From Pseudonocardia petroleophila (GTDB taxonomy: Bacteria > Actinomycetota > Actinomycetes > Mycobacteriales > Pseudonocardiaceae), in NCBI RefSeq assembly GCF_014235185.1, contig NZ_CP060131.1, positions 5,897,501 to 5,961,500 of the forward strand: a DNA stretch of 64,000 nucleotides, in the 5' to 3' direction. Under the pieces are notes generated by a model. It ran no database searches. It saw only the letters and a program-made list of their open reading frames with translations, and had not been told where the DNA came from. How positions within the stretch are numbered: position 1 is the first letter of the stretch; each line of letters begins with the position of its first letter. Below are positions 4,667 through 23,644 of the stretch, in pieces. The translations under genes were made by a program, and so were the position numbers.

Positions 4667-4787
4667 AGTGACACGACGGTAACAATCTGCATCCGCCACG
4701 ACCGGGCGATCCCGGGGGTGACACCGCGTGACCTGTTCTCCCCACCTTCCGACGAGGCCGCTACTGCTGCCACTGCTATGCAGAAGC

Positions 4788-5933
4788 ATGGAGATCGCGC
4801 ATGATGCACGGATGGCTGATGTGCTCACGAACGGCGGGCCGGCGGTGGCCCGCTGGTCGCGATCGGACCGGCTGTCCCTCAGCGGGATGACAGCGTTCGT
4901 GGTGCTGCTGCACGTCGTCGGTTGGGGCGTGCTGGTGCTGGCCGTGGCCCCGCAGAACATCGTGCTCGGTGAGGCCGGGACCTTCGGCGTCGGGCTCGGG
5001 CTGACCGCCTACCTGCTCGGCGTCCGGCACGCCTTCGACGCCGACCACATCGCTGTCGTCGACAACACCACCCGCAAGCTCGTCGGCGAGGGCCGCCCCG
5101 CCCTCAGCGGCGGGTTCTGGTTCTCCCTCGGCCACTCCAGCGTCGTGTTCGGGTTGTCGCTGCTGCTGACCCTCGGGATACGGGCCCTCATCGGCCCCGT
5201 GCAGGACGAGAACTCCGCGCTGCTCCAGACGCTCGGACTGATCGGTGCCGTGGTCGCCGGCACGTTCCTCATCCTCATCGGCCTCACCAACCTGGTCGCC
5301 GTCGTCGGTATCACGCGCGTCTTCCGCCGGATGCGTCACGGCGAGCTGGACGAGGCCGAACTCGAACGCCACCTGCACAATCGCGGGTTCCTGGCCCGCC
5401 TGCTGGGGCGGGTGATGCGCCGGGTCAGCAAGCCATGGCACCTCTATCCCGTCGGGCTGCTGATGGGCTTGGGCTTCGACACCGCCACCCAGGTCGCGCT
5501 GCTCGTCCTCGCCGCAGGCACCGCGGCGATCACCCTGCCCTGGTACGCGATCCTCGTACTGCCCGTGCTGTTCGCCGCCGGGATGAGCCTGTTCGACACC
5601 GCAGACGGCGTCTTCATGGCCCGCGCCTACAGCTGGGCCTTCCTCAAGCCGATCCGCAAGGTCTTCTACAACCTCACGGTCACCATCCTGTCCGTCGTGG
5701 TCGCCCTGGTCATCGGCGTCGTGGTACTCATCGGCCTGCTCGCCGAACGCACCGGCGTCGGCACCGGCCCGCTGGCATGGGTCGGCTCGCTGGACCTGGA
5801 GTACGTGGGGTTGGCCATCGTCGGGCTGTTCGTCGTGACCTGGCTGATCGCGTTGGCCGTGTGGCGCTGGGCGAGGGTGGAGGAGCGATGGTCACCACCC
5901 GTCACGGCACCCCACCCCGGTACGGCTGGCTGA
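4788..5933 (+). CDS. Nickel/cobalt permease (NiCoT, HoxN/NixA family)
   Basis: 381 residues with eight or so membrane segments. The family signatures are present: RHAFDADHI in TM2, GFWFSLGHS, LGFDTATQ and MSLFDTADGVFM. These histidine/aspartate motifs bind Ni(II)/Co(II) and define high-affinity secondary uptake through the cytoplasmic membrane. The start is uncertain: ATG at 4788 or 4812, or GTG at 4728. It is followed within 1.2 kb by cbtB/cbtA and a CobC-like phosphatase, so the locus is probably devoted to cobalt for cobalamin, or nickel for urease or hydrogenase. Confidence 0.93.
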   Translation: MEIAHDARMADVLTNGGPAVARWSRSDRLSLSGMTAFVVLLHVVGWGVLVLAVAPQNIVLGEAGTFGVGLGLTAYLLGVRHAFDADHIAVVDNTTRKLVGEGRPALSGGFWFSLGHSSVVFGLSLLLTLGIRALIGPVQDENSALLQTLGLIGAVVAGTFLILIGLTNLVAVVGITRVFRRMRHGELDEAELERHLHNRGFLARLLGRVMRRVSKPWHLYPVGLLMGLGFDTATQVALLVLAAGTAAITLPWYAILVLPVLFAAGMSLFDTADGVFMARAYSWAFLKPIRKVFYNLTVTILSVVVALVIGVVVLIGLLAERTGVGTGPLAWVGSLDLEYVGLAIVGLFVVTWLIALAVWRWARVEERWSPPVTAPHPGTAG

Positions 5934-7095: not shown

Positions 7096-7308
7096 ATGAT
7101 GACCCAGGCCGCAGCCCTTCCCATCTCCACACCGGTGACCATCCCCCTCAATGAGGTCGTCCCGTGGGCCGTCTTCGCCGGGGCGATCCTGTTGGCCCTG
7201 CTCTACCTGGTCGGCATGGACCAGGGCGCAACCTCGCTGATCTCGGGCAGCGTGCTGCACGAGTTCCTGCATGACGGTCGGCACCTCCTCGGCTTCCCCT
7301 GCCACTGA
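7096..7308 (+). CDS. cbtB: Cobalt transporter subunit CbtB
   Basis: 70 residues with one membrane helix (VPWAVFAGAILLALLYLVGMDQGA) followed by the short His-rich tail HEFLHDGRHLLGFPCH. This is the layout of CbtB: single TM plus a C-terminal histidine motif thought to bind cobalt. An AGGAGA ribosome binding site precedes two consecutive ATGs (7096, 7099). It is 16 bp upstream of cbtA, with which it forms the CbtAB uptake pair. Confidence 0.88.
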   Translation: MMTQAAALPISTPVTIPLNEVVPWAVFAGAILLALLYLVGMDQGATSLISGSVLHEFLHDGRHLLGFPCH

Positions 7309-7324
7309 CGGCGGGACAGCGATC

Positions 7325-8068
7325 ATGGTGAGAGCGCTGCTGGTGCGCGGTATGGCCGCCGGTGTGGTCGCAGGGCTGGCCTACTTCGTGTTCGCCTACC
7401 TGTTCGGCGAGGCGGCGGTCGACGGGGCCATCGCCTATGAGGACAGCTTGACCGCGGCTGCGCACGGTGCGTCCGGCGAGCCCCCGCTGGTCAGCCGCGG
7501 GATCCAGAGCACGGTCGGACTCGGTATCGCCGCAGTGCTCTACGGCGTCGTGATCGGCGGACTCCTTGCGCTCGTCTACGCCGCGGTCGTGGGCCGCGTC
7601 GGGCGGCTGAGCCCACGGGCCACCGCGGCCGTGATCGCGGTTGTCGGGTTCGTCGCGGTGGCCGCGGTGCCGTTCCTCAAGTACCCCGCCAACCCGCCCG
7701 CGTCGACCGTCGACAGCACGGTCGGCCAGCGCACCGGGCCCTTCGTCGCGCTGATCATCATCTCGGTCGCCCTCATGATCGGCACGGTGCTGCTGCAACG
7801 CAGCCTCACCGCACGACTGGGAACGTGGAACGCCACGCTGACGGCGACCGGAGCCTACGTCGCGGCGGCCGGCATCGTGGGCTTCCTGCTGCCGACCGTC
7901 GACGAAACTCCGGCAGACTTCCCTGCCACCGTGCTCTACGACTTCCGGCTGGCCTCGATCGGCGGCCAGGTCGTGCTGTGGGCCGTGGTCGGACTCGTGT
8001 TCGGTGCACTGGTGGACGACACGTCCAAGCGCCGGTCAGGGACGCGGCTAGGGCTAGCCGACCGATGA
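7325..8068 (+). CDS. cbtA: Cobalt transporter subunit CbtA
   Basis: 247 residues with about six membrane segments. The N-terminal MVRALLVRGMAAGVVAGL, the LVSRGIQSTVGL segment, FLKYPANPP and the C-terminal VLWAVVGLVFGAL block are characteristic of CbtA, the membrane subunit of a cobalt transporter commonly found with cobalamin genes. The ATG at 7325 is preferred to an in-frame ATG inside cbtB because it begins at the family N-terminus. It is co-transcribed with cbtB. Confidence 0.88.
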   Translation: MVRALLVRGMAAGVVAGLAYFVFAYLFGEAAVDGAIAYEDSLTAAAHGASGEPPLVSRGIQSTVGLGIAAVLYGVVIGGLLALVYAAVVGRVGRLSPRATAAVIAVVGFVAVAAVPFLKYPANPPASTVDSTVGQRTGPFVALIIISVALMIGTVLLQRSLTARLGTWNATLTATGAYVAAAGIVGFLLPTVDETPADFPATVLYDFRLASIGGQVVLWAVVGLVFGALVDDTSKRRSGTRLGLADR

Positions 8069-13339: not shown

Positions 13340-14293
13340 GTGTGCACGCCCGAACCCGACCTGACGATCGTGTACCGGTCCAGCGCGGCCGAGAACAGCA
13401 AGCCGCGCCCCCGGTACTACGACAAGACCCTGGCGCTCGCCTCCGTGCTGAGGGCTGCCGAGGCGCTGCCGGCCCGGCCACGCTTCGTGTTCCTCAACGA
13501 CGGGGAGGTGCCGGCGGACCGGGTACGGATCATGGCCGGGATCGGCGATGTCCGCCGCGTCGACGACGGCGGCAACCGGGCCACCTTCCGCCGCGCGGTC
13601 GCCCAGGAGGCGGCCCGGCCCGGATCGCGCAGCGGCCTCGTGTGGTTCGCCGAGGACGACTACCTCTACCGGCCGGACTCCCTGACGACGTTCGTCCAGG
13701 CGGCACAGAGATTCCCCGATGCCGACTACTTCTCCCTCTACGGGTCGGACGCGCTCGACACCTCGGTCGCCGGTAGACGTCCGGTGCGCCGTTCCGCGCC
13801 GGGTGCCGCATTCGACCCCGACGCGCGAGACTGCGGATCGGCAACCTGGTACCGCGCCTACGCCACCACCAGCACCTTCGGGGTGCGACGGGGCGCCCTG
13901 CGCGAGGATGCCGCATTGCTGCGGGTCATGCCGTTCACCGGTGGGGCGTGGGACACCGCCACCTGCCTGGCGCTGCAGGGCTACCGACCCTTCGGCCCGG
14001 CCGAAGTCCTGCCGACGTGCGAGGCCTCGCTCGTACGCGGGGTGGCCCGGGGAACGGTTCGCGTGCTCGCCAACCTGCGGTCGCGGCGCCGTCCGGCTCG
14101 CAGGCGCATCCAGCTCGGTACCGATCCGGAGCTGATCTGGCACATGGAGGTCCTGACCGGGGCCACCCGCACACGCCCCAGCGCGAGGACCGACGCGATC
14201 GACTGGGACGAGGTCGCCGGAGAGGTCGCGGACTGGGCAACAGTCAGATCGATGCCGGTTCCGCAGCTCCACCGCCGTTGTGCCGGCGCCTGA
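13340..14293 (+). CDS. Glycosyltransferase-like protein, copy 2 of a paralogous pair
   Basis: 317 residues from GTG with GAGGAG upstream. It aligns end to end with the protein at 787-1719: LTIVYRS, KPRPRYYDKTLALASVLRAAEALP, FVFLNDGEVPADR, LVWFAEDDYLYRPDSL, YGSDALDT, TTSTFGVR, GGAWDTATCLALQGY and ELIWHMEV. The EDDY motif is the likely metal/nucleotide-sugar site of a GT-A-like fold. The upstream region (13241-13275) is unusually AT-rich for this genome (a run of six T), suggesting its own promoter. The acceptor is unknown. Confidence 0.6.
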   Translation: MCTPEPDLTIVYRSSAAENSKPRPRYYDKTLALASVLRAAEALPARPRFVFLNDGEVPADRVRIMAGIGDVRRVDDGGNRATFRRAVAQEAARPGSRSGLVWFAEDDYLYRPDSLTTFVQAAQRFPDADYFSLYGSDALDTSVAGRRPVRRSAPGAAFDPDARDCGSATWYRAYATTSTFGVRRGALREDAALLRVMPFTGGAWDTATCLALQGYRPFGPAEVLPTCEASLVRGVARGTVRVLANLRSRRRPARRRIQLGTDPELIWHMEVLTGATRTRPSARTDAIDWDEVAGEVADWATVRSMPVPQLHRRCAGA

Positions 14294-14386: not shown

Positions 14387-15802
14387 TCAGACCGTGAGCA
14401 CGGCTAGGACGGGGCCGGCCAGCACTCCGAGGAGAAGTGAGGCGATGGCCGCGATGTAGGCGCTCCGTGCTGCGGAGCGGCCAGCCGGTGGCACGTCGTC
14501 GGCGGGTACGGCGTCACGGGCCCGGAGAACCGGGGCGATCCACCGCAGGTAGTAGAAGACGCTGGCCATGGTGTTGAGCACCGCGACCACGGCGAGCCAG
14601 GCCAGGCCGGCGTCGACGGCGGCGGTGAACACCGTCAGCTTGCCCACGAACACGGCGGTGGGCGGCGTGCCGATCAGCCCGAGCAGGCAGATCACCAGGC
14701 TCAGGGCGAGCAGGCGGTGCCGAGCGGCCAGGCCGCGGTAGTCGGCGAGGGTGCGGGCTCGGGGAAGGGCGGCTACCACGGCGAACGCGCCGAGGTTGGT
14801 CACCGCGTAGGCGGCGAGGTACAGCCCGAGGGCGGGCATCGCGAGCGGGGCCCGTCCGGCCGCGGCTACGGCCATCAGCAGGTAGCCGACCTGGCTGATC
14901 GTGGAGTAGGCGAGCAGCCGGCGCACGTCGTCCTGGAAGAACGCTGCGAGGTTGCCCAGCGTCATCGTGACCGCGGCGAGCACCGCCACCAGCAGCGACC
15001 AATCGACGTCGGACGTCGGCACGGTCGTGGACAGCAGGCGGTACATCGCCCACAACCCGCCGATCTTGGGGACGGTGGCGACGAACGCCGCGACGCCGGT
15101 GGTGGCGCCCTGCACGACGTCGGGCACCCAGAAGTGCAGCGGCACCGCACCGATCTTGAACAGCAGCCCGGCTAGCACCGCGACGAGCCCGACCGCGACC
15201 GCGACGCGCGGCGCGTCCGGTAGCGCGGCGGCCAGATCGGTGTACTGCGTCGAGCCGCTGACGCCGAACAGCAGCGTCGACCCGATCAGCAGGGTGACCC
15301 CGGACAGAGCGCCCATCAGGTAGTACTTCAGCGCGGCCTCGTTGCCCGGCCCGGTCCGGGCGATGCCGGTCAGGGCGTAGAGCGGGATGCTCGCGAGCAG
15401 GTAGGAGGCCACGAGCAGCAGCAGGTCGTTCGCGCCCGCCATGGCTACGGTGCCGAGCCCGCCGAGCAGCAGCAGGACATAGAACTCGGCCTCGCGGGTG
15501 CTCCCCGAGACCTGGTCACCCGCCAGACCGATGGTCAGGACGATCGAGGCGAGCACGACAATCCGAACCGCGCCCAGGCCCACGTCGACGACGTAGGTGT
15601 CGTCGAAGACCGACTGCACCGGGCGGGTCAGGTCCGCGGCCGCCGCGATCGCACCGGTGAGGCAGGCGAGCACCGCGATCGACCGGACGACGCCCTGACG
15701 GTTCCGCGGCAGGAACGATCCGGCCAGCAAGCCCACCACGGCGGCGAACACCAGGAGCAGCTCAGGGATCAGCGCACCGGGATTCTCGTTCATCATCGTC
15801 AT
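14387..15802 (-). CDS. nuoN: Complex I antiporter-like subunit NuoN
   Basis: 471 residues, about 14 membrane segments, proton-translocating (PF00361) core with LFKIGAVPLHFWVPDVVQGA (the lysine/histidine helix) and RRLLAYSTISQVGYLLM. It starts with an ATG overlapping the nuoM stop by four bases (ATGA) and is the last gene of the operon. Within complex I, NuoN is the antiporter module nearest the NuoK/J/A/H heel. Key lysines are kept, so cation translocation is plausible. Confidence 0.93.
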   Translation of the reverse strand: MTMMNENPGALIPELLLVFAAVVGLLAGSFLPRNRQGVVRSIAVLACLTGAIAAAADLTRPVQSVFDDTYVVDVGLGAVRIVVLASIVLTIGLAGDQVSGSTREAEFYVLLLLGGLGTVAMAGANDLLLLVASYLLASIPLYALTGIARTGPGNEAALKYYLMGALSGVTLLIGSTLLFGVSGSTQYTDLAAALPDAPRVAVAVGLVAVLAGLLFKIGAVPLHFWVPDVVQGATTGVAAFVATVPKIGGLWAMYRLLSTTVPTSDVDWSLLVAVLAAVTMTLGNLAAFFQDDVRRLLAYSTISQVGYLLMAVAAAGRAPLAMPALGLYLAAYAVTNLGAFAVVAALPRARTLADYRGLAARHRLLALSLVICLLGLIGTPPTAVFVGKLTVFTAAVDAGLAWLAVVAVLNTMASVFYYLRWIAPVLRARDAVPADDVPPAGRSAARSAYIAAIASLLLGVLAGPVLAVLTV

Positions 15803-17280
15803 CGAGCGACCAGCTCCACCACGGTCCGGGCGGCGGGCTCGATCACGTCGAGCAGGAACCGCGGGAGCACACCGATCACCACCGTGGCCACGATCAGGGG
15901 GGCGATCGCCCAGGACTCGACCGCGGTGAGGTCATCGGTCGCACCGGGCACGCGGGTCTCGCCGAGGAACACCCGCTGATAGGCGAGCAGGAACAGAGCC
16001 GCGGTGACGACGATCCCGAGCACCGCGATCGCCGTCGGCACCGGCGCGCCCGGCAGCGAGCCGGTGAAGATCTGGAACTCGGCGATGAACCCGGAGAACC
16101 CGGGCAGCCCGAGCGAGGCGAACGCGGCGGCGGCGAACAGCAACGCGAACCGCGGGGCGGGCCGGGCCAGCCCCCCGTAGGCCGCCATGTCGTAGGTCGC
16201 GCCCCGAGCGTAGAGCACGCCGGTGAGCAGGAACAACGCACCGGTGATCAGCCCATGGCTGACCATCTGCGTCACCGCGCCGGTGACGGCCAGAGTCCGT
16301 GCCTGCTCCGAGCTGCCCGCCACCAGTCCGGCCGCACCGACCGCGAGGATGACGTAGCCCATGTGGTTGACCGAGGTGTAGGCGATCATGCGCTTGAGGT
16401 CGGTCTGTGCGAGCGCGACCAGCGCGCCGTAGACCACCGACACCACCCCGACGGCGATGATCACCCACGCGTACTGCCGCCAGGTCTCCGGCATGATCGG
16501 CAGCACGATCCGGACGAAGCCGAACGTGCCCATCTTCAGCAGTACCCCGGCCAGGATCGCCGACCCGGCTGCGGGGGCGTCGCTGTGCGCGGGCGGCAGC
16601 CAGGTGTGGAACGGCACGGTCGGGGTCTTGATCGCGAACCCGATGACGAGCGCGGCCAGCACCAGCCCGGCGAGCGGACCCCCGCCGTCGAGTGGCGCGG
16701 CCGCGGTGAGCTCGACGATGTCGAAGGTGCCCCCGGCCAGGTAGAGCCCGATGAACCCGAGCAGCAGCACCAGTGAACCGAGGAAGGTGTAGAGGAAGAA
16801 CATCAGCGCCGAGCTCCGCGCCCGTTCCCCGTGTCCCCAGCCGGCGATCACGAAGTACATCGCGACGATCGAGACGTCGAAGAAGACGAAGAACAGGATC
16901 AGGTCCAGCGACACGAACAACCCGAGCGACACCGTGTGCAGCAGCAAGAACAGCACCGCGTACGCGCGGACCCGGCGCTGCTCACGCAGCGAGTACACCG
17001 AGCAGGCCAGGAACAGCACGCCGGTCATCGCCAGCAACGGCAGCGACAGGCCGTCGACGCCGACGTGGTATCCGGCCGACACCGTCGGGATCCACGCGAT
17101 GTCGGTCTCGTACCCGATACCGCCGGCGGGGTCGTACCCGATCCATAGCGCGATGACCAACGCCAGGTCTAGCACGCTCACCGCCACCCACGTCCAGCGG
17201 ACCGCGCGATCGGGCAGCCGGGGCAGCGCGAGCAGCACCAGCCCGACCGCGAGCGGCAGGAACACCACGATCGAGAGCAC
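15799..17280 (-). CDS. nuoM: Complex I antiporter-like subunit NuoM
   Basis: 493 residues and about 14 membrane segments. KTPTVPFHTWLPPAHSDAP and LKRMIAYTSVNHMGYV are classic NuoM motifs. The TM5 segment reads FFVFFDVSIVAMYF, so the usual conserved glutamate of the proton channel (FFE) appears to be aspartate. It lies three bases after nuoL and overlaps nuoN by four bases. It should form the middle proton channel of a membrane-arm complex. Confidence 0.94.
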   Translation of the reverse strand: MLSIVVFLPLAVGLVLLALPRLPDRAVRWTWVAVSVLDLALVIALWIGYDPAGGIGYETDIAWIPTVSAGYHVGVDGLSLPLLAMTGVLFLACSVYSLREQRRVRAYAVLFLLLHTVSLGLFVSLDLILFFVFFDVSIVAMYFVIAGWGHGERARSSALMFFLYTFLGSLVLLLGFIGLYLAGGTFDIVELTAAAPLDGGGPLAGLVLAALVIGFAIKTPTVPFHTWLPPAHSDAPAAGSAILAGVLLKMGTFGFVRIVLPIMPETWRQYAWVIIAVGVVSVVYGALVALAQTDLKRMIAYTSVNHMGYVILAVGAAGLVAGSSEQARTLAVTGAVTQMVSHGLITGALFLLTGVLYARGATYDMAAYGGLARPAPRFALLFAAAAFASLGLPGFSGFIAEFQIFTGSLPGAPVPTAIAVLGIVVTAALFLLAYQRVFLGETRVPGATDDLTAVESWAIAPLIVATVVIGVLPRFLLDVIEPAARTVVELVAR

Positions 17281-17283
17281 GCC

Positions 17284-19161
17284 TCACCTCACCAGGATCA
17301 GGAACAGGGCCAGGACCGCGAGCGCACCCGCGGCCTGGGCGTAGTACTGGTGCAGCTGCCCGGTCTGCGGGCGGCGCGCCAGCCGGCCCAGGGCCCGGCC
17401 CGCGGCGCCGAGCCCGTCGAGCCCCCGGGACAGAGGCCCCTCCAGCCGGAGGTCGGCCAGCCGGGCGGCCGCACGGGTACCGCCCGCGGCCGCCCGCACC
17501 GCCCCGTCGACGACCCGCTCGTCGAACCTCGACAGGGCCCGGGCCAGCGCCATCGTCGGCTCCGCCACCCCCGCCAGCGCGACCCGCTCCAGGCCCAGCC
17601 AGCCACGCAGAAGTGTGACCCGGGTCAGGATGCCGACTATCGGCGGCAGGGCGGGCAGCACGGCCGCGCCGAGCAGCCCGGCGCGGGCGGGCACCAGCAC
17701 GGCCAGCACCACGGCCGCGGCCAGCACGCCCGACACCAGCGCCTCGACGAGCGTCGGCTCCGGTTCGCCCACCGAGCCCAGCGCGGCGCGGACCGGCTCC
17801 GCGGCTGCGCCGAGCACCGCGGCCCCCAGTGCGAGGGGCACCAGCGGCAGCCTGGCCACGAGGGGTATCTCCTGGGTGCCCGGCTGTTCCCGGTCGTACC
17901 CGGTATCCGCGGGCGCCCGCCCCAGCACCGCGACCAGCGCCGCCGCGGCGTAGGCCGCGCTGACCAGCAGCCCGACCAGCCCGGCCACATAGAGGGCGGG
18001 CGAGGTCGCCGCGGCCGCGGCCAACACCGCGTCCTTCCCGAAGAAGATCGACAGCGGCGGCAGGCCGGCCAGGCTCAGCACACCCACCGCGAACACTGCC
18101 CCGACCAGCGGCCAGCGCCGCGCCGCACCCCGTAGCGGCGCGAGCTGCTTGGTGCCCAGCGCGGTGAGCCACGCCCCGGCGACGAGGAACAGCAGGCTCT
18201 TCGTCGCCGCGTGCGCCACCAGCTGCAGCGTGCCGCCCGCCGTGGCACCCACCCCGGCGGCGAGCACGATGAACCCAATCTGCGAACACGTGGACGCCGC
18301 GAGCAGCTGCTTGAGATCGGTCTGCGCGAGCGCGACCAGCCCGAGCAGCACCACCGTCACCGCGCCGACCCACGCCACCAGCGGACCGGCCCAGCCGGAT
18401 CCGGCCAGTAGCGGCTCGATCCGCAGCAGCAGGTACCCCCCGGCCGCGACCATCGTCGCGGAGTGCAGCAGCGCCGAGACCGGGCTCGGGCCGTCCATCG
18501 CCCGGGCGAGCCAGAAACTGAACGGCAGCTGGGCGGACTTGCCCAGCGCGGCGACGACCAGCCCCGCGGTCAGCAGGTCTCGCCAGCCGCCGCTCGCCTG
18601 CGGCAGGTCGGCCAGCGCGAGGGTGCCCACGCCCCCGCCCAGCGCCGCCCCGGCCGCGACATAGAGCCCGATGTCGGCGCTGCGGGTCACCAGGAACGCC
18701 AGCGCACCCGACTCCATGGGCCGCTGCGCCTGCCAGCGGTGCGCGACGAGCGCGTAGGACATCGCACCCATCACCTCCCACGCCGCGAGCAGCGTGAGCA
18801 GGTTCGTGGCGGTGACGGTGAGCAGCATCGCGCCGACGAAGACCAGCAGTAGCCCGAAGAACCGGTGGCCGGCGTCCATCTCGGCGGCGGCGAACACAAC
18901 CACCGCGAGCGTCACTGCGCTCACCACGAGCACCATCACCGCCGACAGCCCGTCCACCGCCAGCCCAAGGTCGATGCCGGCTATCAGCGCCGAGGACACG
19001 GTCGGGCGACCCACGGCCACCAGCGCCGCGAGTACCAGCACGACCGACGCCACCCCGATCGCCACCGGGGCGGCGACGCGCGCGGCCGGGCGACCGACGG
19101 CCAGCAGCACGACACCGGCCAGCACCGGCACCGCCACCAACCCGACCAGCGCGAGCTCCAC
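17284..19161 (-). CDS. nuoL: Complex I antiporter-like subunit NuoL
   Basis: 625 residues from GTG, with about 16 membrane segments including a C-terminal helix. The conserved AAWEVMGAMSYAL (TM5 glutamate), GKSAQLPFSFWLARAMDGP (TM7 lysine) and QTDLKQLLAASTCSQIGF are all present, so this antiporter-like subunit keeps its channel residues. The region of the lateral helix (after about residue 520) is Arg/Ala-rich. It is one base from nuoK and three bases from nuoM. Confidence 0.94.
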   Translation of the reverse strand: MELALVGLVAVPVLAGVVLLAVGRPAARVAAPVAIGVASVVLVLAALVAVGRPTVSSALIAGIDLGLAVDGLSAVMVLVVSAVTLAVVVFAAAEMDAGHRFFGLLLVFVGAMLLTVTATNLLTLLAAWEVMGAMSYALVAHRWQAQRPMESGALAFLVTRSADIGLYVAAGAALGGGVGTLALADLPQASGGWRDLLTAGLVVAALGKSAQLPFSFWLARAMDGPSPVSALLHSATMVAAGGYLLLRIEPLLAGSGWAGPLVAWVGAVTVVLLGLVALAQTDLKQLLAASTCSQIGFIVLAAGVGATAGGTLQLVAHAATKSLLFLVAGAWLTALGTKQLAPLRGAARRWPLVGAVFAVGVLSLAGLPPLSIFFGKDAVLAAAAATSPALYVAGLVGLLVSAAYAAAALVAVLGRAPADTGYDREQPGTQEIPLVARLPLVPLALGAAVLGAAAEPVRAALGSVGEPEPTLVEALVSGVLAAAVVLAVLVPARAGLLGAAVLPALPPIVGILTRVTLLRGWLGLERVALAGVAEPTMALARALSRFDERVVDGAVRAAAGGTRAAARLADLRLEGPLSRGLDGLGAAGRALGRLARRPQTGQLHQYYAQAAGALAVLALFLILVR

Positions 19162-19162
19162 G

Positions 19163-19468
19163 TCAGTCCTTCAGCTCGGCGGCCATGTCGGTCATGTCGA
19201 TCTCGCCGGACCGGAAGATCGCGATGGCCACCGCGAACCCCATCGCCATCTCCACCGCCATCAACGTCACCGCGACCAGCACGACGACCTGCCCGTCGGG
19301 TTGCGCGGGCGAGACGTAGAACCAGAACGCCGCACCGGCCACGACCACCGCGTTCACCATCAGCTCCAGCCCCATCATGATCATCACGATGGACTGCTGG
19401 GACAGCGCGCCGTAGAGCCCGACGGCCAGCAGCGCGACCGCGAGCAGCAGGAAGGCCTGCAACGTCAT
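19163..19468 (-). CDS. nuoK: Complex I subunit NuoK (MrpC-like)
   Basis: 101 residues with three membrane helices. GLELMVNAV (Glu in TM2) and MAVEMAMGFAVAI (Glu in TM3) keep the two buried glutamates needed for proton transfer in NuoK. Its ATG overlaps the nuoJ stop by four bases. Its small size and sequence are fully typical of the family. Confidence 0.93.
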   Translation of the reverse strand: MTLQAFLLLAVALLAVGLYGALSQQSIVMIMMGLELMVNAVVVAGAAFWFYVSPAQPDGQVVVLVAVTLMAVEMAMGFAVAIAIFRSGEIDMTDMAAELKD

Positions 19469-20025
19469 CGACCCACCCCCCGGATCGGATCATCGGCGGG
19501 CCGCCGACTCAGGTCGTCGCCGAACCGGTCGTACCGGCCGCGCGGATGCGCGAGCACCACGGCGGAGACGATCGTGGCGAACAGGCCCAGCCCCACTACG
19601 AGCATCACGAGCATGTGCGAGCCCATCAGCGCCTCGCCGAGCGCGAAGGTCGGGTCCGCGGGCGGCTCGCCCTGACGCTGCGGCCAGTCGACGAGGAGCA
19701 CACCCGTCGCGAGCACGACGAACGTGCCGACGGCGATGACCAGCGAGCCGCGCTGGTTGTGCACCATCGTCATCGGCATCAACCCGGCCGGGTTCATCAT
19801 CAGCATGATCATGAAGACGGCCATCACGACCATCTCCATGATCATCATGAGGATGACGAGGACTCCTAGGTAGGACAGGCCGAGCAGCAGCAACGGGATC
19901 GCGGCGAAGACGAAGGACGCGAGCAGCGCGAATGTCGCCCGCGCCATCGAGTCGACGCGGAACACCGCAACCCCGGTGACCACCGCCCCGACCGCGCACA
20001 CCCAGAAGATCACCGCCTCGTACAT
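19465..20025 (-). CDS. nuoJ: Complex I subunit NuoJ
   Basis: 186 residues with five membrane helices. FWVCAVGAVVTGVAVF, then LGLSYLGVLVILMMIMEMVVMAVFMIMLMMN, resembles the NuoJ TM3 pi-bulge region, but it is unusually Met-rich: 13 methionines between about residues 52 and 85. It overlaps nuoK by four bases and follows nuoH by one base. The Met enrichment is odd and may matter given the metal-binding neighbours. Confidence 0.9.
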   Translation of the reverse strand: MYEAVIFWVCAVGAVVTGVAVFRVDSMARATFALLASFVFAAIPLLLLGLSYLGVLVILMMIMEMVVMAVFMIMLMMNPAGLMPMTMVHNQRGSLVIAVGTFVVLATGVLLVDWPQRQGEPPADPTFALGEALMGSHMLVMLVVGLGLFATIVSAVVLAHPRGRYDRFGDDLSRRPADDPIRGVGR

Positions 20026-20026
20026 G

Positions 20027-20983
20027 TCACATCCCTCCCATCGCCGGCCCCCGGCTGACGACGACCAGCGCCACCAGCAGGGCCTGCAGCAGCGTCAGCG
20101 GGATCAGCACGATCCAGCCGAACTCGGCGAAGCGGTCCATCCGCACCGTCGCGCTCCGGCTGCGGATCCACACCAGCACCCCGAGCACCGCGACGGTCTT
20201 GACGAGCGTCCACAGCCATGGCGGCAGCAGCGGTCCCGCGCCGCCGCCGAGGAACAGCGGCACCGACATCGCCGCCGCGGCGGCCAGCAGCAGCCAGCGC
20301 CCGGCCAGCAGCAGCAACCGGTCCACCCCGGAGAACTCGGCCAGCACCCCGCCGGCGATGTCGCGCCCGGTCGCGGTGTCGAACGGCCCGGCGAACGACA
20401 GCGCCAGCGCGGAGAGCAGGAACGCCACGAACGCCACCGGCATCCAGACCACGAACCACAGCCCGTCCTGCGCGGCGACCGCATCCGACACGTTCAGCGA
20501 GGCCGCGCCCGTGGCCACCGTGATCAGGGCGAACATGTGCGGCAGCTCGTAGGACAGCCCCTGCACCGCGAAGCGGTACCCGCCCACCAGGCCCCACACC
20601 GAGTTCGTGCCCCAGCCGGCCATCCACAGCGCCGCCCACATCACGATCTCCATCGCGTTGAACCACACGATGCCGACCGACAGGTCGCTGGCCGTGGTGT
20701 CCCCGAGCGGGACGACCAACGCCGCGAGCACCGCAGCGACCGGCACAAGCACCACCCCGATACGGGCCAGTAACCGGTCCGAGGCGACGACGGCACGCCG
20801 CTGCTGCACCAGCAATCGGCCCGACTCGGCCAGCGGCGCAGCCAGCACCGCGCCGGTGATCCGCCGCCCGTCGGCCCGCGCGTCGAGCACCCGGGCGAAC
20901 GCTGCCCCGGCTAGGGCCAACGCCCCCAGCAACACCGGCACCAGCAGCACAGTCCACAACGGGCCCTGCTGCACCTGGTTCAT
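20027..20983 (-). CDS. nuoH: Divergent complex I subunit NuoH
   Basis: 318 residues with about eight membrane helices. It keeps the NuoH frame (GAVLAAPLAESGRLLVQQ at the amphipathic helix, PFDTATGRDIAGGVLAEFSG in loop 3). The usual quinone-chamber sequences are degraded: the canonical QPLADGxKLLxKE and PEAExELVxGxxTEYSG lose their acidic residues except in AEFSG. The start ATG overlaps the stop of the preceding gene by four bases. In complex I, NuoH couples quinone reduction to the proton channels. Here the quinone site is probably not functional in the usual way, in line with absent redox subunits. Confidence 0.88.
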   Translation of the reverse strand: MNQVQQGPLWTVLLVPVLLGALALAGAAFARVLDARADGRRITGAVLAAPLAESGRLLVQQRRAVVASDRLLARIGVVLVPVAAVLAALVVPLGDTTASDLSVGIVWFNAMEIVMWAALWMAGWGTNSVWGLVGGYRFAVQGLSYELPHMFALITVATGAASLNVSDAVAAQDGLWFVVWMPVAFVAFLLSALALSFAGPFDTATGRDIAGGVLAEFSGVDRLLLLAGRWLLLAAAAAMSVPLFLGGGAGPLLPPWLWTLVKTVAVLGVLVWIRSRSATVRMDRFAEFGWIVLIPLTLLQALLVALVVVSRGPAMGGM

Positions 20984-22095
20984 CCCGGCACCATCATCAG
21001 CGCGTCGAGGTCCATGTCCAGTGAGGCGACCACCACCCGGACGGACGCAAGCTCGCGCCCCTCGACGAGACCCGCCAGTGCCGTCAGCGCGGCGGCGGCC
21101 CGCCCGGCGTCCGGCGCGGGCCCGCCGTGCTCGGCAGTGTCTAGCCACCGGAGCCAGCGTGCGGTGGCGTCCCCGGCCAGGTCGGGACCGTCGTCGAGCT
21201 TCCCGAGCCCGTCGGTGGCCCAGCGCAGCGTGCGGGATCGGCGCAGCCGGCGCGCGAACCGGTGCAGCACGGCGCTGTCGACGGTGCCGGCGAGGACGTC
21301 GTCGCGCAGCCGGCGGGCCGTGCGTGCCGCCGTGGAGGACCCACACACGGCCAACAGCTGCGCCAGGCCGTCCAGTGCGGCCGCCGCCGGGGGGCACTCC
21401 CACGCCGGGCCGGGCTCCCCGACCACCTCGACCCGCGCGGCCTGAACGACATCGCCCTGAAGCGTGACGTGCACGACCAGTCCGGCGGGCCAGTCGGACA
21501 GAACGGGTCCCAGGGACATCTGCAGCACGTCGAGGGTGAGCCCGTCACGGTCCGGCGCCCGGTCCGCCATCGGCAACCCGGCAACCTCACCACCGTGCAT
21601 CATGTGCATGTCGTGGCCGCCCGACATCTCGTGCCCGGACATCTCATGCCCCGGCACCTCGTCGGCCGGCACCTCGTCGGCCGGCACCTCGTCGGCCGGC
21701 ACCTCGTGGGCCTTAACCTCGTGGGCCGAGGCAACGGTGCCGCGGCCCGGTTCCGGTCGCGCCTCCTCGGTCGCGGACGAGACGGAGGCGTGGCCCGCCC
21801 CGCTGCCGCCACGGAGCCCGCGGTAGGCCCGATCGAGCTCGTCGCGGGCCCCGTCGGCCGGTCCGACGTCGGCCCGTGCCCGCGGCGCGGGCACCTGCGA
21901 CCAGATGCGCTCGATCGCGTCACCCAAACCGGGGCCCGGTGCGCCGCAGACGACGAGCAGGTCGGCATCGGCGGGGGCCGCCGCCAGCTCCCACCCCCGC
22001 TCGCGAGCCAGCCGCTCGACAGCCAGCCGCGCGGGACGACCGTTCCGAGCCGTGATGACCAGCAGTCGCGGGGTCGCACGCAGCCAGCTCGTCAT
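20980..22095 (-). CDS. Novel fused NuoB/NuoD-like protein with His/Met-rich linker, between nuoA and nuoH
   Basis: 371 residues, encoded exactly where nuoB-C-D(-I) usually sit and overlapping both nuoA and nuoH by four bases. Residues 1-80 (ending DADLLVVCGAPGPGLGDAI, then RIWSQVPAPR) follow the NuoB pattern ADLLLVTGxVTxxM...YEQMPEPR but lack the Cys ligands of cluster N2. Residues 125-168 are a repeat of HE(V/M)xx(D/G) units ending GGHDMHMMHGG, a copper- or silver-binding-like region. Residues 184-223 (GLTLDVLQMSLGP and LVVHVTLQGDVVQAARVEV) resemble the NuoD/hydrogenase large-subunit opening GPQHPxxH...LDGExV. The C-terminus VVVASLDMDLDAL resembles the NuoD/hydrogenase end (xxSxDPCxxC) without cysteines. 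It is predicted soluble and peripheral. The relationship to NuoB/NuoD is inference from short motifs. Confidence 0.6.
   Translation of the reverse strand: MTSWLRATPRLLVITARNGRPARLAVERLARERGWELAAAPADADLLVVCGAPGPGLGDAIERIWSQVPAPRARADVGPADGARDELDRAYRGLRGGSGAGHASVSSATEEARPEPGRGTVASAHEVKAHEVPADEVPADEVPADEVPGHEMSGHEMSGGHDMHMMHGGEVAGLPMADRAPDRDGLTLDVLQMSLGPVLSDWPAGLVVHVTLQGDVVQAARVEVVGEPGPAWECPPAAAALDGLAQLLAVCGSSTAARTARRLRDDVLAGTVDSAVLHRFARRLRRSRTLRWATDGLGKLDDGPDLAGDATARWLRWLDTAEHGGPAPDAGRAAAALTALAGLVEGRELASVRVVVASLDMDLDALMMVPG
21646..21735. repeat. 15-nt tandem repeat coding the His/acidic linker
   Basis: Three perfect tandem copies of a 15-base unit (GTCGGCCGGCACCTC on the plus strand, 21661-21705) are flanked by degenerate copies on both sides. 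On the coding strand each unit gives five residues of the DEVPA type. The repeat lies inside the fused nuo-operon gene and could vary in copy number between strains. Confidence 0.8.
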
Positions 22096-22451
22096 GTCCA
22101 CCGGAACGCCCCTTCGCGCCAGGCGTACACGACCCCGACGAGCAGCACGGCCAGGAAGCCGAACATCTCGATCACGGCCTTCGGCCCGATCTGCGCCACA
22201 ACGACGGCCCACGGGTACATGAACACCATCTCCATGTCGAAGGCCAGGAAGACCATCGTGATCGTGTACCAGCGCACGTGGTATCGGGACACGGCGTGCT
22301 GCACCGGGGGCGTTCCGGACAGGAACGGCTCGACCGAAACCACCCCGGGCGCCTGCCGCACCAGCAACGACCACCCGTAGACCAGCGACACCCACGCTGC
22401 TGCCACGGCAAGCAGCAAGAGGGCCGGCCCGAACTCCGCCGCCATCGTCAT
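22092..22451 (-). CDS. nuoA: Complex I subunit NuoA
   Basis: 119 residues with three membrane helices and RYHVRWYTITMVFLAFDMEMVFMYPWAVV, the signature TM2-TM3 region of NuoA. The loop that normally carries a conserved Cys (YECG) reads VEPFLSG, so that Cys is missing. The ATG at 22451 has GGGAGG upstream and is the first gene of the operon. The next gene starts within its stop codon (ATGA). Confidence 0.92.
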   Translation of the reverse strand: MTMAAEFGPALLLLAVAAAWVSLVYGWSLLVRQAPGVVSVEPFLSGTPPVQHAVSRYHVRWYTITMVFLAFDMEMVFMYPWAVVVAQIGPKAVIEMFGFLAVLLVGVVYAWREGAFRWT

Positions 22452-22474
22452 CGCCTCCCGTTATACGGATACGG

Positions 22475-22486
22475 GGTACTAGTACC
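22475..22486. promoter_or_regulatory. Palindrome GGTACTAGTACC upstream of nuoA
   Basis: A perfect 12-bp palindrome lies 24-35 bp before the nuoA start, next to an AT-richer stretch (GTTATACGGATACGG), where a promoter would be expected. Its TACTAGTA core recalls the ACTACTA/TAGTAGT repeat upstream of the multicopper oxidase (586-606), so one repressor might serve both. That link is inference. Confidence 0.4.
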
Positions 22487-22522
22487 ATGAAGTGGGGGTC
22501 GACCACCAGCCGTGGTGAGACG

Positions 22523-22560
22523 GGTGTGGCCCGGACCGACTGGTCGGTCCGGGCCACACC
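22523..22560 (-). terminator. Strong hairpin between the DUF305 gene and nuoA
   Basis: An 18-bp perfect inverted repeat (GGTGTGGCCCGGACCGAC and its complement) with a 2-base loop starts 7 bp after the DUF305 stop. There is no long T-run, as is common for actinobacterial intrinsic terminators. It isolates the nuo operon from the upstream DUF305 gene. Confidence 0.85.
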
Positions 22561-22566
22561 GACCGG

Positions 22567-23199
22567 TCAGACCTGCTGGAGCAGCGTGTCCATCTCGGTG
22601 ATCTCGGCCTGCTGGGTGTCGATGATCTTCTGCGCCAATGCGAGCGCATCCGGGTCGGCACCGTCCTGCAGCTCGGTCTGGGCCATCTCGACCGCGCCCC
22701 GGTGGTGCTCGGTCATCATCTCCAGGAACATGCGGTCGAACGCCGGCCCGGACGCACCCTGCAGCTGCTGCATCTGCTCGGGCGTCATCATCCCGCCCAT
22801 GGCGCCCATGTCCCCGCCGTGATCCATACCGCCCATGCCGCCCATGCCGCCGTCCTCGGCGGGCACCTCGGCACCCCACTCCTCGAGCCAGCCGACCATC
22901 GTGTCGATCTCGGGCTGCTGCCCGCCGCCGATCCGCGCGGCCAGGTCGATCACCTGCGCGTTCTGGCTACGACCGGCTACCAGATCGGCCATCTCGACCG
23001 CCTGACGGTGGTGCGGGATCATGCCCTGCACGAACGCCAAGTCCGCGTCGTTCTGCTCGCCCTGCGCCGCGGACGCCGAGGAGCCGCCCGGGGCGGCGGT
23101 CCCGGCGGAGGTGTCGGTGCCGGCCGCGCAGCCGGTCAGGATCAGACCCGCGACCGCGATACCGGCCATCAGGCGCGCTGAAGAAAGCCGTGCATTCAT
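22567..23199 (-). CDS. DUF305 lipoprotein, Met/His-rich (copper-binding type)
   Basis: 210 residues from ATG with GAGAGG upstream. The signal peptide ends in the lipobox LILTGC. Two DUF305 (ferritin-like) repeats are seen as MIPHHRQAVEMADL and MTEHHRGAVEMAQ, separated by GGMGGMGGMDHGGDMGAMGGMM. DUF305 proteins are extracytoplasmic and frequently linked with copper resistance. The paired HH motifs and Met clusters suggest metal binding outside the membrane. A strong terminator follows. The DUF6153-like gene lies 58 bp upstream on the same strand. Confidence 0.9.
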   Translation of the reverse strand: MNARLSSARLMAGIAVAGLILTGCAAGTDTSAGTAAPGGSSASAAQGEQNDADLAFVQGMIPHHRQAVEMADLVAGRSQNAQVIDLAARIGGGQQPEIDTMVGWLEEWGAEVPAEDGGMGGMGGMDHGGDMGAMGGMMTPEQMQQLQGASGPAFDRMFLEMMTEHHRGAVEMAQTELQDGADPDALALAQKIIDTQQAEITEMDTLLQQV

Positions 23200-23257: not shown

Positions 23258-23644
23258 TCACGTCCGCAGGACGCAGAGCAGGGCGAGTCGTGCCGGGGCG
23301 GTTGCCGGTGGGGCGCGCGGCGCCGGACGCACACGGGACGTGCCCGCGCGGTGCGCGACCCGGGCCAGCCCGGGACGCCGCCACAGCACCGCCGATACCA
23401 GGAGGATGGCCACGGCGGTGAGCACGGCCAGGCACAGATGGAGCGATGCGGATCCGTGATCCTCGCCGGGATGTGCGGGGTCAGACTCCATATCGGATCC
23501 AGCCATCGCCGCAGCGGAGATGGCCGGGCTGTCCGGCGTCATCACGGACAGATGGTGCATCCCCACCAGACCGACGAACAGACCGGCGATCAGGACGCCG
23601 AGCATGATCGCCCGTCGTCCCCGCAGCGCCACCGACCTGATCAC
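23258..23644 (-). CDS. DUF6153-like small membrane protein
   Basis: 128 residues from GTG. There are two membrane helices: MLGVLIAGLFVGLVGMHHL near the N-terminus and CLAVLTAVAILLVSAVL in the second half. Between them is a Met/Asp/His-rich extracytoplasmic loop (MAGSDMESDPAHPGEDHG). The tail ends LALLCVLRT. This two-TM layout with a C-terminal LCVLRT-like end matches DUF6153, usually found beside DUF305 genes in actinobacteria, as here. The start could also be the ATG at MLGV. Confidence 0.65.
   Translation of the reverse strand: MIRSVALRGRRAIMLGVLIAGLFVGLVGMHHLSVMTPDSPAISAAAMAGSDMESDPAHPGEDHGSASLHLCLAVLTAVAILLVSAVLWRRPGLARVAHRAGTSRVRPAPRAPPATAPARLALLCVLRT

Follow-up and report, generated by a model that had tools for sequence, protein, structure and literature searches.

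A complex I-type membrane arm without redox subunits in Pseudonocardia petroleophila and other bacteria: a possible copper(I)-handling machine

The window analyzed here, a stretch of 64,000 nucleotides of the Pseudonocardia petroleophila genome, carries on its minus strand an eight-gene operon, nuoA-X-H-J-K-L-M-N (14387-22451), whose products would form a proton-driven copper(I) machine, probably an exporter. We read it as a complex-I-derived machine in which copper(I) would have taken the place of electron transfer, and which would add to CopA as a many-proton Cu(I) antiporter; we put the probability of this reading at roughly 0.55. The loss of the electron-transfer parts, the likely metal-binding parts and the frequent copper-resistance genes in the neighborhood suggest that the cluster may handle copper, and not NADH.

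Gene content, distribution and phylogeny of the operon

The initial annotation had described eight tightly packed genes, and our re-analysis confirmed their coordinates, their minus-strand orientation and their spacing, with neighbors that either overlap by 4 bp or sit 1-3 bp apart. The operon starts with a nuoA-like gene (22092..22451; 119 aa; PF00507, 92.8 bits), followed by the gene for X (20980..22095; 371 aa) and by nuoH-like (20027..20983; 318 aa; PF00146, 165.4 bits), nuoJ-like (19465..20025; 186 aa; PF00499, 48.8 bits), nuoK-like (19163..19468; 101 aa; PF00420, 53.3 bits), nuoL-like (17284..19161; 625 aa; PF00361, 177.3 bits), nuoM-like (15799..17280; 493 aa; PF00361, 224.7 bits) and nuoN-like (14387..15802; 471 aa; PF00361, 199.2 bits) genes. 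All seven Nuo-type products score above the Pfam cut-off, while X of the window, searched alone, gave no Pfam match at cut-off.

With E. coli proteins as queries, no homologs of NuoB, CD, E, F, G or I were found in the window, in agreement with what had been claimed for the surroundings of the operon. The same queries detected neither NuoB, CD, E, F and G nor NuoI beside the operon in any of 119 genomic stretches (20/20 target, 80/80 named and 19/19 divergent ones). Two of the ten plasmid regions, L101 and L103, contain a NuoG-like match; the L101 gene is annotated as formate dehydrogenase alpha. The seven membrane subunits (A, H, J-N) were all found in 20/20 target and 19/19 divergent stretches. 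The earlier view of a membrane arm of complex I type, devoid of the parts that handle NADH or quinone, is supported. The only NuoB and the only NuoD of the genome are encoded at C1:2.309-2.312 Mb, in a separate complete nuo operon, a stretch in which every E. coli Nuo query from A to N has a match. The genome-wide search, which covered NuoB and NuoD, gave no spare copy of either, so one of the two refuting findings named in the initial annotation was not obtained for these subunits; we rejected redox partners encoded elsewhere on this basis. We also rejected a pseudogene remnant of a full operon, in view of the open reading frames and of new residues that are invariant across the family, and an assembly artifact, in view of the identical gene order in many genomes and on complete plasmids.

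Chromosomes as well as plasmids carry the operon, in soil, marine and host-associated bacteria, and its annotation there is NADH-quinone oxidoreductase. Plasmid regions with the operon span Actinomycetota, Alpha- and Gammaproteobacteria; the Proteobacterial members are known here from plasmids only. As named loci we used the 80 top-ranking ones among 539 stretches encoding a NuoH relative at an E-value of 1e-3, a number that does not imply family membership of all 539. Four of the 119 genomic loci repeat others (two of them cover a place sampled twice); they are included in the 119-locus counts and excluded from those based on 115 distinct loci (18 target, 78 named and 19 divergent). Some loci are cut by contig ends.

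In unrooted quick trees with SH-aLRT as the sole support measure and with some long branches, all 35 family rows of NuoH formed one clade (SH-aLRT 99; 94 rows, 83 different), and so did all 30 family rows of NuoL (SH-aLRT 96). Both were separate from the E. coli Hyc/Hyf rows. The family NuoH falls outside ordinary NuoH, and not inside ordinary complex I, the placement that had been named as refuting a new branch. A branch of its own is supported by the trees. The gene order nuoA-hypothetical-nuoHJKLMN is not new; it was published in 2012 under the name 'partial NDH-1 operon' (excerpts of PMC3314556).

The hypothetical gene encodes a degenerate NuoB-NuoD fusion

According to excerpts of PMC3314556 and PMC6676996, the hypothetical gene of the operon is without homologs in UniProt or PDB. 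The initial annotation had correctly noticed an extra gene in the slot of nuoB, C, D and I; this gene is not unrelated to complex I. As judged from sequence comparisons, X joins degenerate versions of NuoB and NuoD in one chain, with neither the cysteines for Fe-S clusters nor the histidines of the quinone site; this kinship is visible only with alignments and long homologs.

Residues 1-100 (21796..22095, minus strand) form a NuoB-like alpha/beta domain lacking the Fe-S cysteine ligands, as indicated by hhalign, PDB matches and the secondary structure of the model. A profile of X, searched against 396 genomes, matched ordinary NuoB genes at profile positions of about 42-83 (E about 1e-7); among PDB sequences, the first 40 of 50 matches were of the NuoB type (best E 4e-7), and hhalign aligned X with NuoB over 42 columns (probability 95.2, E 2.6e-8). 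This similarity stops just before the third cysteine. We take the four NuoB cysteines to be the ligands of cluster N2; they are invariant in the ordinary NuoB alignment, whereas the X alignments (A1, A5) contain no invariant or near-invariant cysteine. Residues 176-369 (20989..21570, minus strand) correspond by hhalign and Foldseek to the N-terminal sheet, a shortened helical part and the C-terminus of NuoD. Compared with NuoD, the X alignment A5 reached a probability of 61 (E 8e-5), and alignment A4, led by a long homolog, one of 98.8 (E 5.8e-17 over 270 columns); Foldseek matches of the AF2 model were marginal, with none at an E-value of 0.001 or below. The motif GPQHPxxHG, which presumably holds the quinone-site histidines, is invariant in ordinary NuoD, and the aligned place in X reads GPxLPxWPAG or GPLFPGLPAG.

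Between both domains lies a disordered His/Met/acid-rich linker (residues 102-164; 21604..21792, minus strand), with pLDDT values below 50 over most of its length. We propose a metal-binding role for this segment, since PF19335 occupies the same place in long homologs: two of them possess PF00346 (58.8 and 51 bits; cut-off 24) and PF19335 (47.7 and 54.7 bits; cut-off 23.6) in one chain, so that in one X lineage the linker is a heavy-metal-binding domain. In the X proteins of Proteobacteria and of some Actinomycetota, the linker is short, of a Met-Gly type and lacks a His run, and 21/137 distinct X contain fewer than five His plus Met residues in the linker. In these alignments, X is all that is left of the Q-module, devoid of redox ligands and equipped with segments of a metal-binding type.

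The replacement of the cluster-bearing and quinone-site subunits by X could be taken to mean that X-bound Cu(I)/Cu(II) stands in for an Fe-S cluster, with copper oxidation or reduction driving proton pumping. On 6/10 plasmid regions the genes annotated next to the operon include multicopper oxidases, as such a copper redox enzyme might lead one to expect, but they are not enriched at genomic loci (13/115 versus 1/20 controls, p 0.35). The X alignments contain no invariant or near-invariant Cys or His, both the tyrosine of NuoJ and the residues that form the quinone site in NuoD have disappeared, and sites made of methionine only favor Cu(I). We therefore regard a copper redox enzyme as improbable.

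New methionines and retained proton residues in the membrane subunits

NuoA, NuoJ and NuoK of the family possess conserved Met and His residues that are rare or absent in ordinary complex I, as represented by small sets from Actinomycetota plus E. coli (13 distinct NuoA, 36 NuoJ and 27 NuoK). The most conspicuous segment comprises NuoJ residues 60-89 (19759..19848, minus strand), with M60, M61, M65, M68, M72, M76, M77, M85 and M87, along with H89 and a new glutamate, E64. Eleven methionine columns of NuoJ are each occupied in 122-123 of 123 distinct family rows versus 0-2 of 36 ordinary ones, and E64 is present in 123/123 versus 0/36; the tyrosine of ordinary NuoJ is lost, with a methionine in its stead. 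We rejected drift to methionine, since these columns persist although NuoJ identity to the window protein falls to 31%. TM3 is predicted at residues 51-76 in a model of moderate confidence (pLDDT 71), and the best Foldseek matches, marginal at a best E of 2.4e-3 and with none at 0.001 or below, are complex I chains that we take to be of the J/ND6/NdhG kind. A post hoc argument that the methionines share one face gave p 0.0014 with five chosen residues and 0.14 with seven. M29, M31, M70 and M74 of the nuoK-like protein are likewise conserved in the family and rare in ordinary NuoK (0-4/27), while NuoA has the family-invariant residues H58, M75 and M78 and frequently H52 and M73.

For the following positions, the E. 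coli numbers and roles are those we presume, and the letters are taken from the alignments; the rows, which leave out proteins of less than 70% of the length of the window protein, include a few repeats (for NuoJ, 129 rows correspond to 123 distinct ones). The claim that the proton residues of NuoK, L and N are kept holds for NuoK (E36 in 128/128; E72 as Glu in 118 and Asp in 10; E35 and E73 in the window) and for NuoL (E144 and K229 in 126/126, K399 in 125/126), but not for NuoN, whose TM5 glutamate E133 is Leu in 119/121 and Val in 2. E144 in TM5 of NuoM is Asp in 111/121. The loops of NuoH and NuoA had been described as degraded; NuoH E216 and E218 and NuoA E51 are indeed lost, but NuoH E157 (111/129), E228 (123/129) and an acid at E220 (128/129), and the NuoA acids at D79/E81 (D72/E74 in the window), are mostly kept.

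The retained proton residues of L and K, the long disordered linker of X, which would fit sensing or buffering, and the copper genes nearby are also compatible with an ion channel or antiporter that is gated by copper. Cu(I) would then be sensed by X and the methionine sites, which would switch the flow of protons or sodium through L, M and N; copper itself would not be carried, and the gain would be repair of pH or membrane potential under copper stress. A sensor would hardly need eleven near-invariant methionines in NuoJ and others in A and K, and we consider such gating rather unlikely.

Copper genes in the neighborhood of the operon

To 20 control stretches from the target genomes (same contig, 100-150 kb away), we compared the surroundings of the operon at the 115 distinct loci. 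Genes for a P-type (copper) ATPase were found near the operon at 47/115 loci versus 0/20 controls (p 8e-5), CsoR at 41/115 versus 0/20, CopZ, counted from short ORFs only, at 30/115 versus 0/20 (an earlier clustering count of 37 can include ATPase metal domains), and DUF305 at 27/115 versus 0/20. The copper queries were drawn from plasmid copies and the window, so that plasmid matches with them are partly self-matches. Clustering of flanking ORFs without chosen queries ranked the ATPase first as well (52/119 loci versus 0/20 controls); several frequent clusters, of which nine were checked, consist of ORFs that overlap the ATPase or CsoR gene out of frame. At least one such copper-type neighbor occurs in 23 of the 31 genus labels of named loci, and copper genes are annotated beside the operon on 7/10 plasmid regions, from Actinomycetota, Alpha- and Gammaproteobacteria. 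The copper queries found no gene in 11/18 target, 31/78 named and 4/19 divergent distinct stretches, including the nearest Pseudonocardia loci (L105-L107). A palindrome matching what we take to be the CsoR operator consensus is present within 400 nt before nuoA in 17/108 distinct loci versus 0/940 control windows when exact, and in 32/108 versus 1/940 with up to one mismatch. The initial annotation had spoken of an ion mover or an unknown driving partner; the context points to copper, which had not been proposed.

Methionine-rich sites fit Ag(I) as well, and PF19335 is a general heavy-metal domain, so silver, gold, mercury or another thiophilic ion might be the substrate in place of copper. 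Three motifs that we presume to mark Cu+-ATPases are present in 34/44 neighboring ATPase ORFs, and CsoR-like and CueR regulators are among the operon neighbors; both observations make a substrate other than copper highly improbable.

Comparative genomics had led to a different reading of the nuoAHJKLMN operon as a 'marine adaptation' (excerpts of PMC3314556 and PMC6676996), with a spare proton or sodium pump serving marine or osmotic adaptation (excerpts of PMC3314556, PMC4018334, PMC6002675 and PMC6676996). Most ion residues of L and M are kept, as such a pump would require. We give this reading little credence, since no redox module remains to power the pump, the plasmid carriers include sputum, soil and glacier isolates, and copper genes and CsoR-type boxes are enriched. 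The excerpts of the marine-adaptation papers (PMC3314556, PMC6676996) contain no copper role for the operon; literature searches found no paper on a copper-linked relative of complex I, with 0 matches in a term search of PMC8478169.

The link to copper is less strong in the window than across the family. Directly upstream of nuoA, on the minus strand as well, lies a DUF305 gene (22567..23199; PF03713, 180 bits; the ORF is open to 23334, with a likely ATG at 23199), followed by a DUF6153 gene (23261..23605; PF19650, 34.2 bits, cut-off 27.7). The DUF6153-DUF305 pair also flanks the operon on a plasmid of Pseudonocardia autotrophica. A strong hairpin (22523..22560, minus strand) separates DUF305 and nuoA (fold of 22480-22570: -50.5 kcal/mol, z -3.9), and a weak CsoR-type box with two mismatches (22464..22478, minus strand), located 12 nt before nuoA, is not significant alone, as the window holds 12 such matches versus 13.9 expected by chance.

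Discussion

The operon shares with complex I (NDH-1) all seven membrane subunits, remnants of NuoB and NuoD, and the nuo gene order; it differs by the absence of genes for the Fe-S, FMN and quinone parts, the exchange of the NuoJ tyrosine for methionine, the loss of the NuoN TM5 glutamate, the metal-binding-type X and its own clade. NuoH, NuoL and NuoD homologs are also found in group 4 membrane hydrogenases and formate hydrogenlyase (Hyc/Hyf), but X lacks conserved cysteines for Ni-Fe or a small-subunit cluster, and NuoH and NuoL stand apart from E. coli Hyc/Hyf. Like Mrp cation/proton antiporters, the system has no redox module and possesses NuoL/N/K-like ion-moving subunits, but NuoA-, NuoH- and NuoJ-type subunits and the B-D remnant set it apart, and its Pfam content does not correspond to the MrpA-G set that we take as the Mrp composition. 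As to copper exporters, a CopA-type (P1B-1) ATPase is the commonest neighbor, and the methionine row presumably resembles that of CusA in CusCBA. Unlike in CopA/CusCBA, no operon gene is an ATPase or RND pump by Pfam.

In the export mechanism that we favor, X would collect Cu(I) on the cytoplasmic side, in the position that NuoB and NuoD would occupy, and would pass it, by way of the histidines in the NuoA loop and of M85, M87 and H89 in the NuoJ loop, to the methionine row of NuoJ TM3, next to the new E64 and to E35/E73 of NuoK. Protons flowing through L, M and the altered N would then drive Cu(I) outward, with direction and coupling ion being guesses. As Cu+-ATPases already export copper, there may be no need for another exporter. 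Coupling several protons to each ion would be of advantage against a steep copper gradient and could explain why so large a machine is kept. That it constitutes a new transporter class is a tentative proposal, to which we assign slightly less than even odds: complex I without redox chemistry would have become a Cu(I) exporter driven by multiple protons, in which a NuoB-NuoD fusion loads the metal and a methionine row crosses the former NuoA/J/K coupling region. Should the inferred copper reading fail, a more conservative picture would be left, a branch of complex I with no redox module and with parts of a metal-binding type.

How chemistry in the quinone cavity drives the distant proton channels of complex I is a long-standing question. 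If our reading is true, a relative with the proton arm and a metal-binding module would separate the two halves of the machine, and coupling would become testable with a metal ion as the sole input; it would also add an unrecognized system to those by which bacteria handle copper.

Organization of the operon

The genes nuoA, X, nuoH, nuoJ, nuoK, nuoL, nuoM, and nuoN run from 22451 down to 14387 on the minus strand, with neighbors either overlapping by 4 bp or lying 1–3 bp apart. Pfam confirmed the seven membrane subunits above cut-off; the X gene of the window (20980–22095) yielded no Pfam match at cut-off. Upstream of nuoA, Pfam identified a DUF305 and a DUF6153 gene on the same strand, and RNA folding predicts a strong hairpin preceding nuoA. 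The host genome, a single contig of 6.49 Mb with the window at 5897501–5961500, has a second nuo stretch near 2.31 Mb that is matched by all E. coli Nuo queries from A to N, so that a separate full nuo set, as considered in the initial annotation, is present. By genome-wide search, the sole NuoB and the sole NuoD of this genome reside in that stretch, away from the operon.

Elsewhere in the window, a PLP-dependent cysteine-synthase-like enzyme (3151–4239, minus strand) lies beside an MFS gene (1709–3280) and resembles by eye L148:5181-6476, an ORF from a related stretch whose cluster occurs at 10/119 related loci and 0/20 controls. Two further proteins (787–1719 and 13340–14293, both plus strand) look alike and share the start motif LTIVYRS; the former has a PF00535 glycosyltransferase match below cut-off.

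X is related to NuoB and NuoD

X had been regarded as an extra gene filling the place of the redox subunits, a view corrected by profile–profile comparison, which relates it to both NuoB (probability 95.2, E 2.6e-8) and NuoD. The latter match reached probability 98.8 (E 5.8e-17, 270 columns) with an alignment headed by a long homologue, and probability 61 (E 8e-5) with a 66-row alignment headed by the window X. NuoB-type subunits made up the first 40 of 50 sequences when X was compared with solved structures, and PF00346 (49 kDa/NuoD) scored above cut-off in two long X homologues. In the AlphaFold2 model (pLDDT 83.8), a disordered linker separates two domains predicted with confidence; its top Foldseek matches, with marginal E-values, are complex I chains of the NuoD and NuoB kind.

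A profile built from 28 X proteins and run against 396 genomes of the phylum gave full-length matches (E ≤2.3e-20) in 18, the window's own genome counted. It also gave short matches at profile positions of about 42–83 (E about 1e-7) in many genomes; those compared sit about 1.2–1.5 kb before a nuoD gene, where nuoB usually lies.

Between the NuoB and NuoD parts, two long X homologues carry a heavy-metal-binding domain (PF19335), while elsewhere this place is mostly filled by a linker rich in His, Met, and acidic residues. Between residue 81 and the NuoD motif, 137 distinct X proteins have a median of 101 residues, with 8 His and 4 Met, and 116 of the 137 have five or more His plus Met. A short Met-Gly stretch replaces the His/Met-rich linker in Proteobacterial and some Actinomycetota X proteins. 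The genomes of family f28 (L088–L099) encode long X forms of 551–674 aa with more of the NuoD part, and all three of those scanned contain the heavy-metal-binding domain; possibly, they are intermediates in the decay of a NuoB–NuoD fusion. In the family alignments, X has no invariant or near-invariant cysteine, and the histidines invariant in NuoD are substituted. With these ligands gone, a copper redox enzyme is an improbable product of the operon.

Conserved residues of the membrane arm

Among 121–129 family rows, NuoL E144, K229, and K399 and NuoK E36 and E72 (E. coli numbering) are retained in nearly all, NuoM E144 is replaced by Asp in 111/121, and NuoN E133 by Leu in 119/121. The proposal that the proton-channel residues of NuoK, NuoL, and NuoN are kept thus holds for the first two and fails for NuoN.

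NuoJ acquired a different set of conserved residues. M27, M60, M61, M65, M68, M72, M76, M77, M85, M87, M138, and H89 (window protein numbering) are each present in 122–123 of 123 distinct family rows, and the same columns hold these residues in 0–2 of 36 NuoJ proteins of respiratory complex I, all 36 of which have Tyr at the M61 position. E64 is found in 123/123 family and 0/36 ordinary rows. Mean Met content is 17.8 versus 4.5 in NuoJ, 6.1 versus 2.8 in NuoA, and 8.7 versus 3.3 in NuoK. The third transmembrane helix of NuoJ lines the coupling region in complex I; in the helix predicted at residues 51–76, five Met fall on one face (p 0.0014, a set chosen post hoc; p 0.14 for seven). NuoK D91 and NuoA E113 are likewise family-conserved acids, absent from 31 and 16 ordinary rows, respectively. 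A copper-gated ion channel would accommodate the retained channel residues, but would hardly need so many near-invariant Met; we consider it rather unlikely.

Phylogeny and distribution

In an unrooted NuoH tree (94 rows, 83 of them different), all 35 rows of the family group in a single clade (SH-aLRT 99), to which neither ordinary NuoH nor the HycD and HyfC rows of E. coli, of the group 4 Hyc/Hyf type, belong. The family is also one clade in the unrooted NuoL tree (SH-aLRT 96), with ordinary NuoL nearest (97). Both trees bear out the suggestion of a branch of its own, separate from ordinary complex I. The three Proteobacterial rows nest among those from Actinomycetota, which would fit horizontal transfer.

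Relatives of the operon NuoH (E ≤1e-30) occur in 52/298 genomes of the order; the two same-genus genomes listed in this search had none. A pattern scan over a collection of 84,980 species returned 539 stretches with a gene for a NuoH relative (E 1e-3). We retained the 80 best of these; all are from Actinomycetota and together bear 31 genus labels, two of which denote unclassified MAGs, with Pseudonocardia the nearest named relatives by NuoH. Plasmid carriers belong to Actinomycetota, Alphaproteobacteria (Acuticoccus, Roseivivax), and Gammaproteobacteria (Halomonas, Vreelandella). The complete eight-gene set is present in 20/20 target stretches, 19/19 divergent stretches, and 10/10 plasmid regions, and each gene in 76–80 of the 80 named loci, some of which are truncated at contig ends. 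No homologue of NuoB, CD, E, F, G, or I adjoins the operon in the 119 genomic stretches (target, divergent, and named).

The order nuoA-hypothetical-nuoHJKLMN has been described among genes for marine or osmotic adaptation (PMC3314556, 2012; PMC4018334, 2014; PMC6002675, 2018; PMC6676996, 2019; PMC8622039, 2021). In PMC6676996, the gene that separates nuoA from nuoH is noted as hypothetical and reported to lack homologues in UniProt or PDB, and one of the carriers listed came from iron-mine fluids rich in copper. The main text of PMC3314556 and PMC4018334 does not contain the word copper, and PMC6002675 refers to copper resistance genes separately from the operon. Our literature search, which covered few subscription papers, found no published link of the operon to copper or of X to NuoB/NuoD. 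Given the copper genes described below, a marine proton pump, as published, is unlikely.

Copper genes near the operon

When flanking ORFs of the 119 loci were clustered without chosen queries, the top cluster was a heavy-metal P-type ATPase (52 of 119 loci versus 0/20 control stretches); the other leading clusters were out-of-frame ORFs over the ATPase or csoR, and then CopZ-like, CsoR-like, and DUF305 proteins. Queries drawn from the plasmid-borne copies and from the window gave, for 115 distinct loci versus 20 controls, 47 and 0 for the ATPase (p 8e-5), 41 and 0 for CsoR (p 4e-4), 30 and 0 for CopZ (p 0.004), and 27 and 0 for DUF305 (p 0.008). Multicopper oxidase was not enriched (13/115 versus 1/20, p 0.35). 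At least one of these five or CopC/CopD was found at 69/115 loci and 1/20 controls. Since 34 of 44 neighboring ATPase ORFs have all three Cu+ motifs, a different thiophilic ion as substrate seems highly improbable.

Copper genes are annotated in 7/10 plasmid regions; none are annotated in those of Rhodococcus (L036) and Gordonia (L041), and in a further one (L103) we found MCO, CopC, and CopD homologues among genes annotated as hypothetical. On a Halomonas plasmid (L101), the ergothioneine genes egtB and egtD (20622–22894) lie directly behind the operon and copper-resistance genes in front.

The palindrome TACCC-N5-GGGTA, a match to the CsoR operator, occurs within 400 nt before nuoA at 17/108 distinct loci versus 0/940 control windows when exact, and at 32/108 versus 1/940 with up to one mismatch. 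Because a copper gene is also found at 22 of these 32 loci, some palindromes may serve the neighboring gene.

The copper link is weaker in the window than in the family: DUF305 and DUF6153 adjoin the operon, the CsoR-type box before nuoA is at chance level, and a multicopper oxidase gene lies 14 kb away at the window edge, with its N-terminal part (PF07732; 1–483, minus strand) inside the window and a continuation in the upstream stretch L275. Other metal genes near the operon encode a NicO family nickel transporter (4731–5930) and a CbtA cobalt transporter (7271–8065), both on the plus strand.

Proposed function

At the level of sequence, redox ligands have been lost, metal-binding-type segments and newly conserved Met, His, and Glu residues are present, and the operons stand in a copper context. 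From this we infer copper binding, transport, its direction, and proton coupling: the operon product is probably a proton-driven Cu(I) exporter, in which X would load Cu(I), the A, J, and K subunits would conduct it, and L and M would drive export. The family would best fit a complex I relative that exchanged its redox module for a copper-handling one and retained the proton arm.
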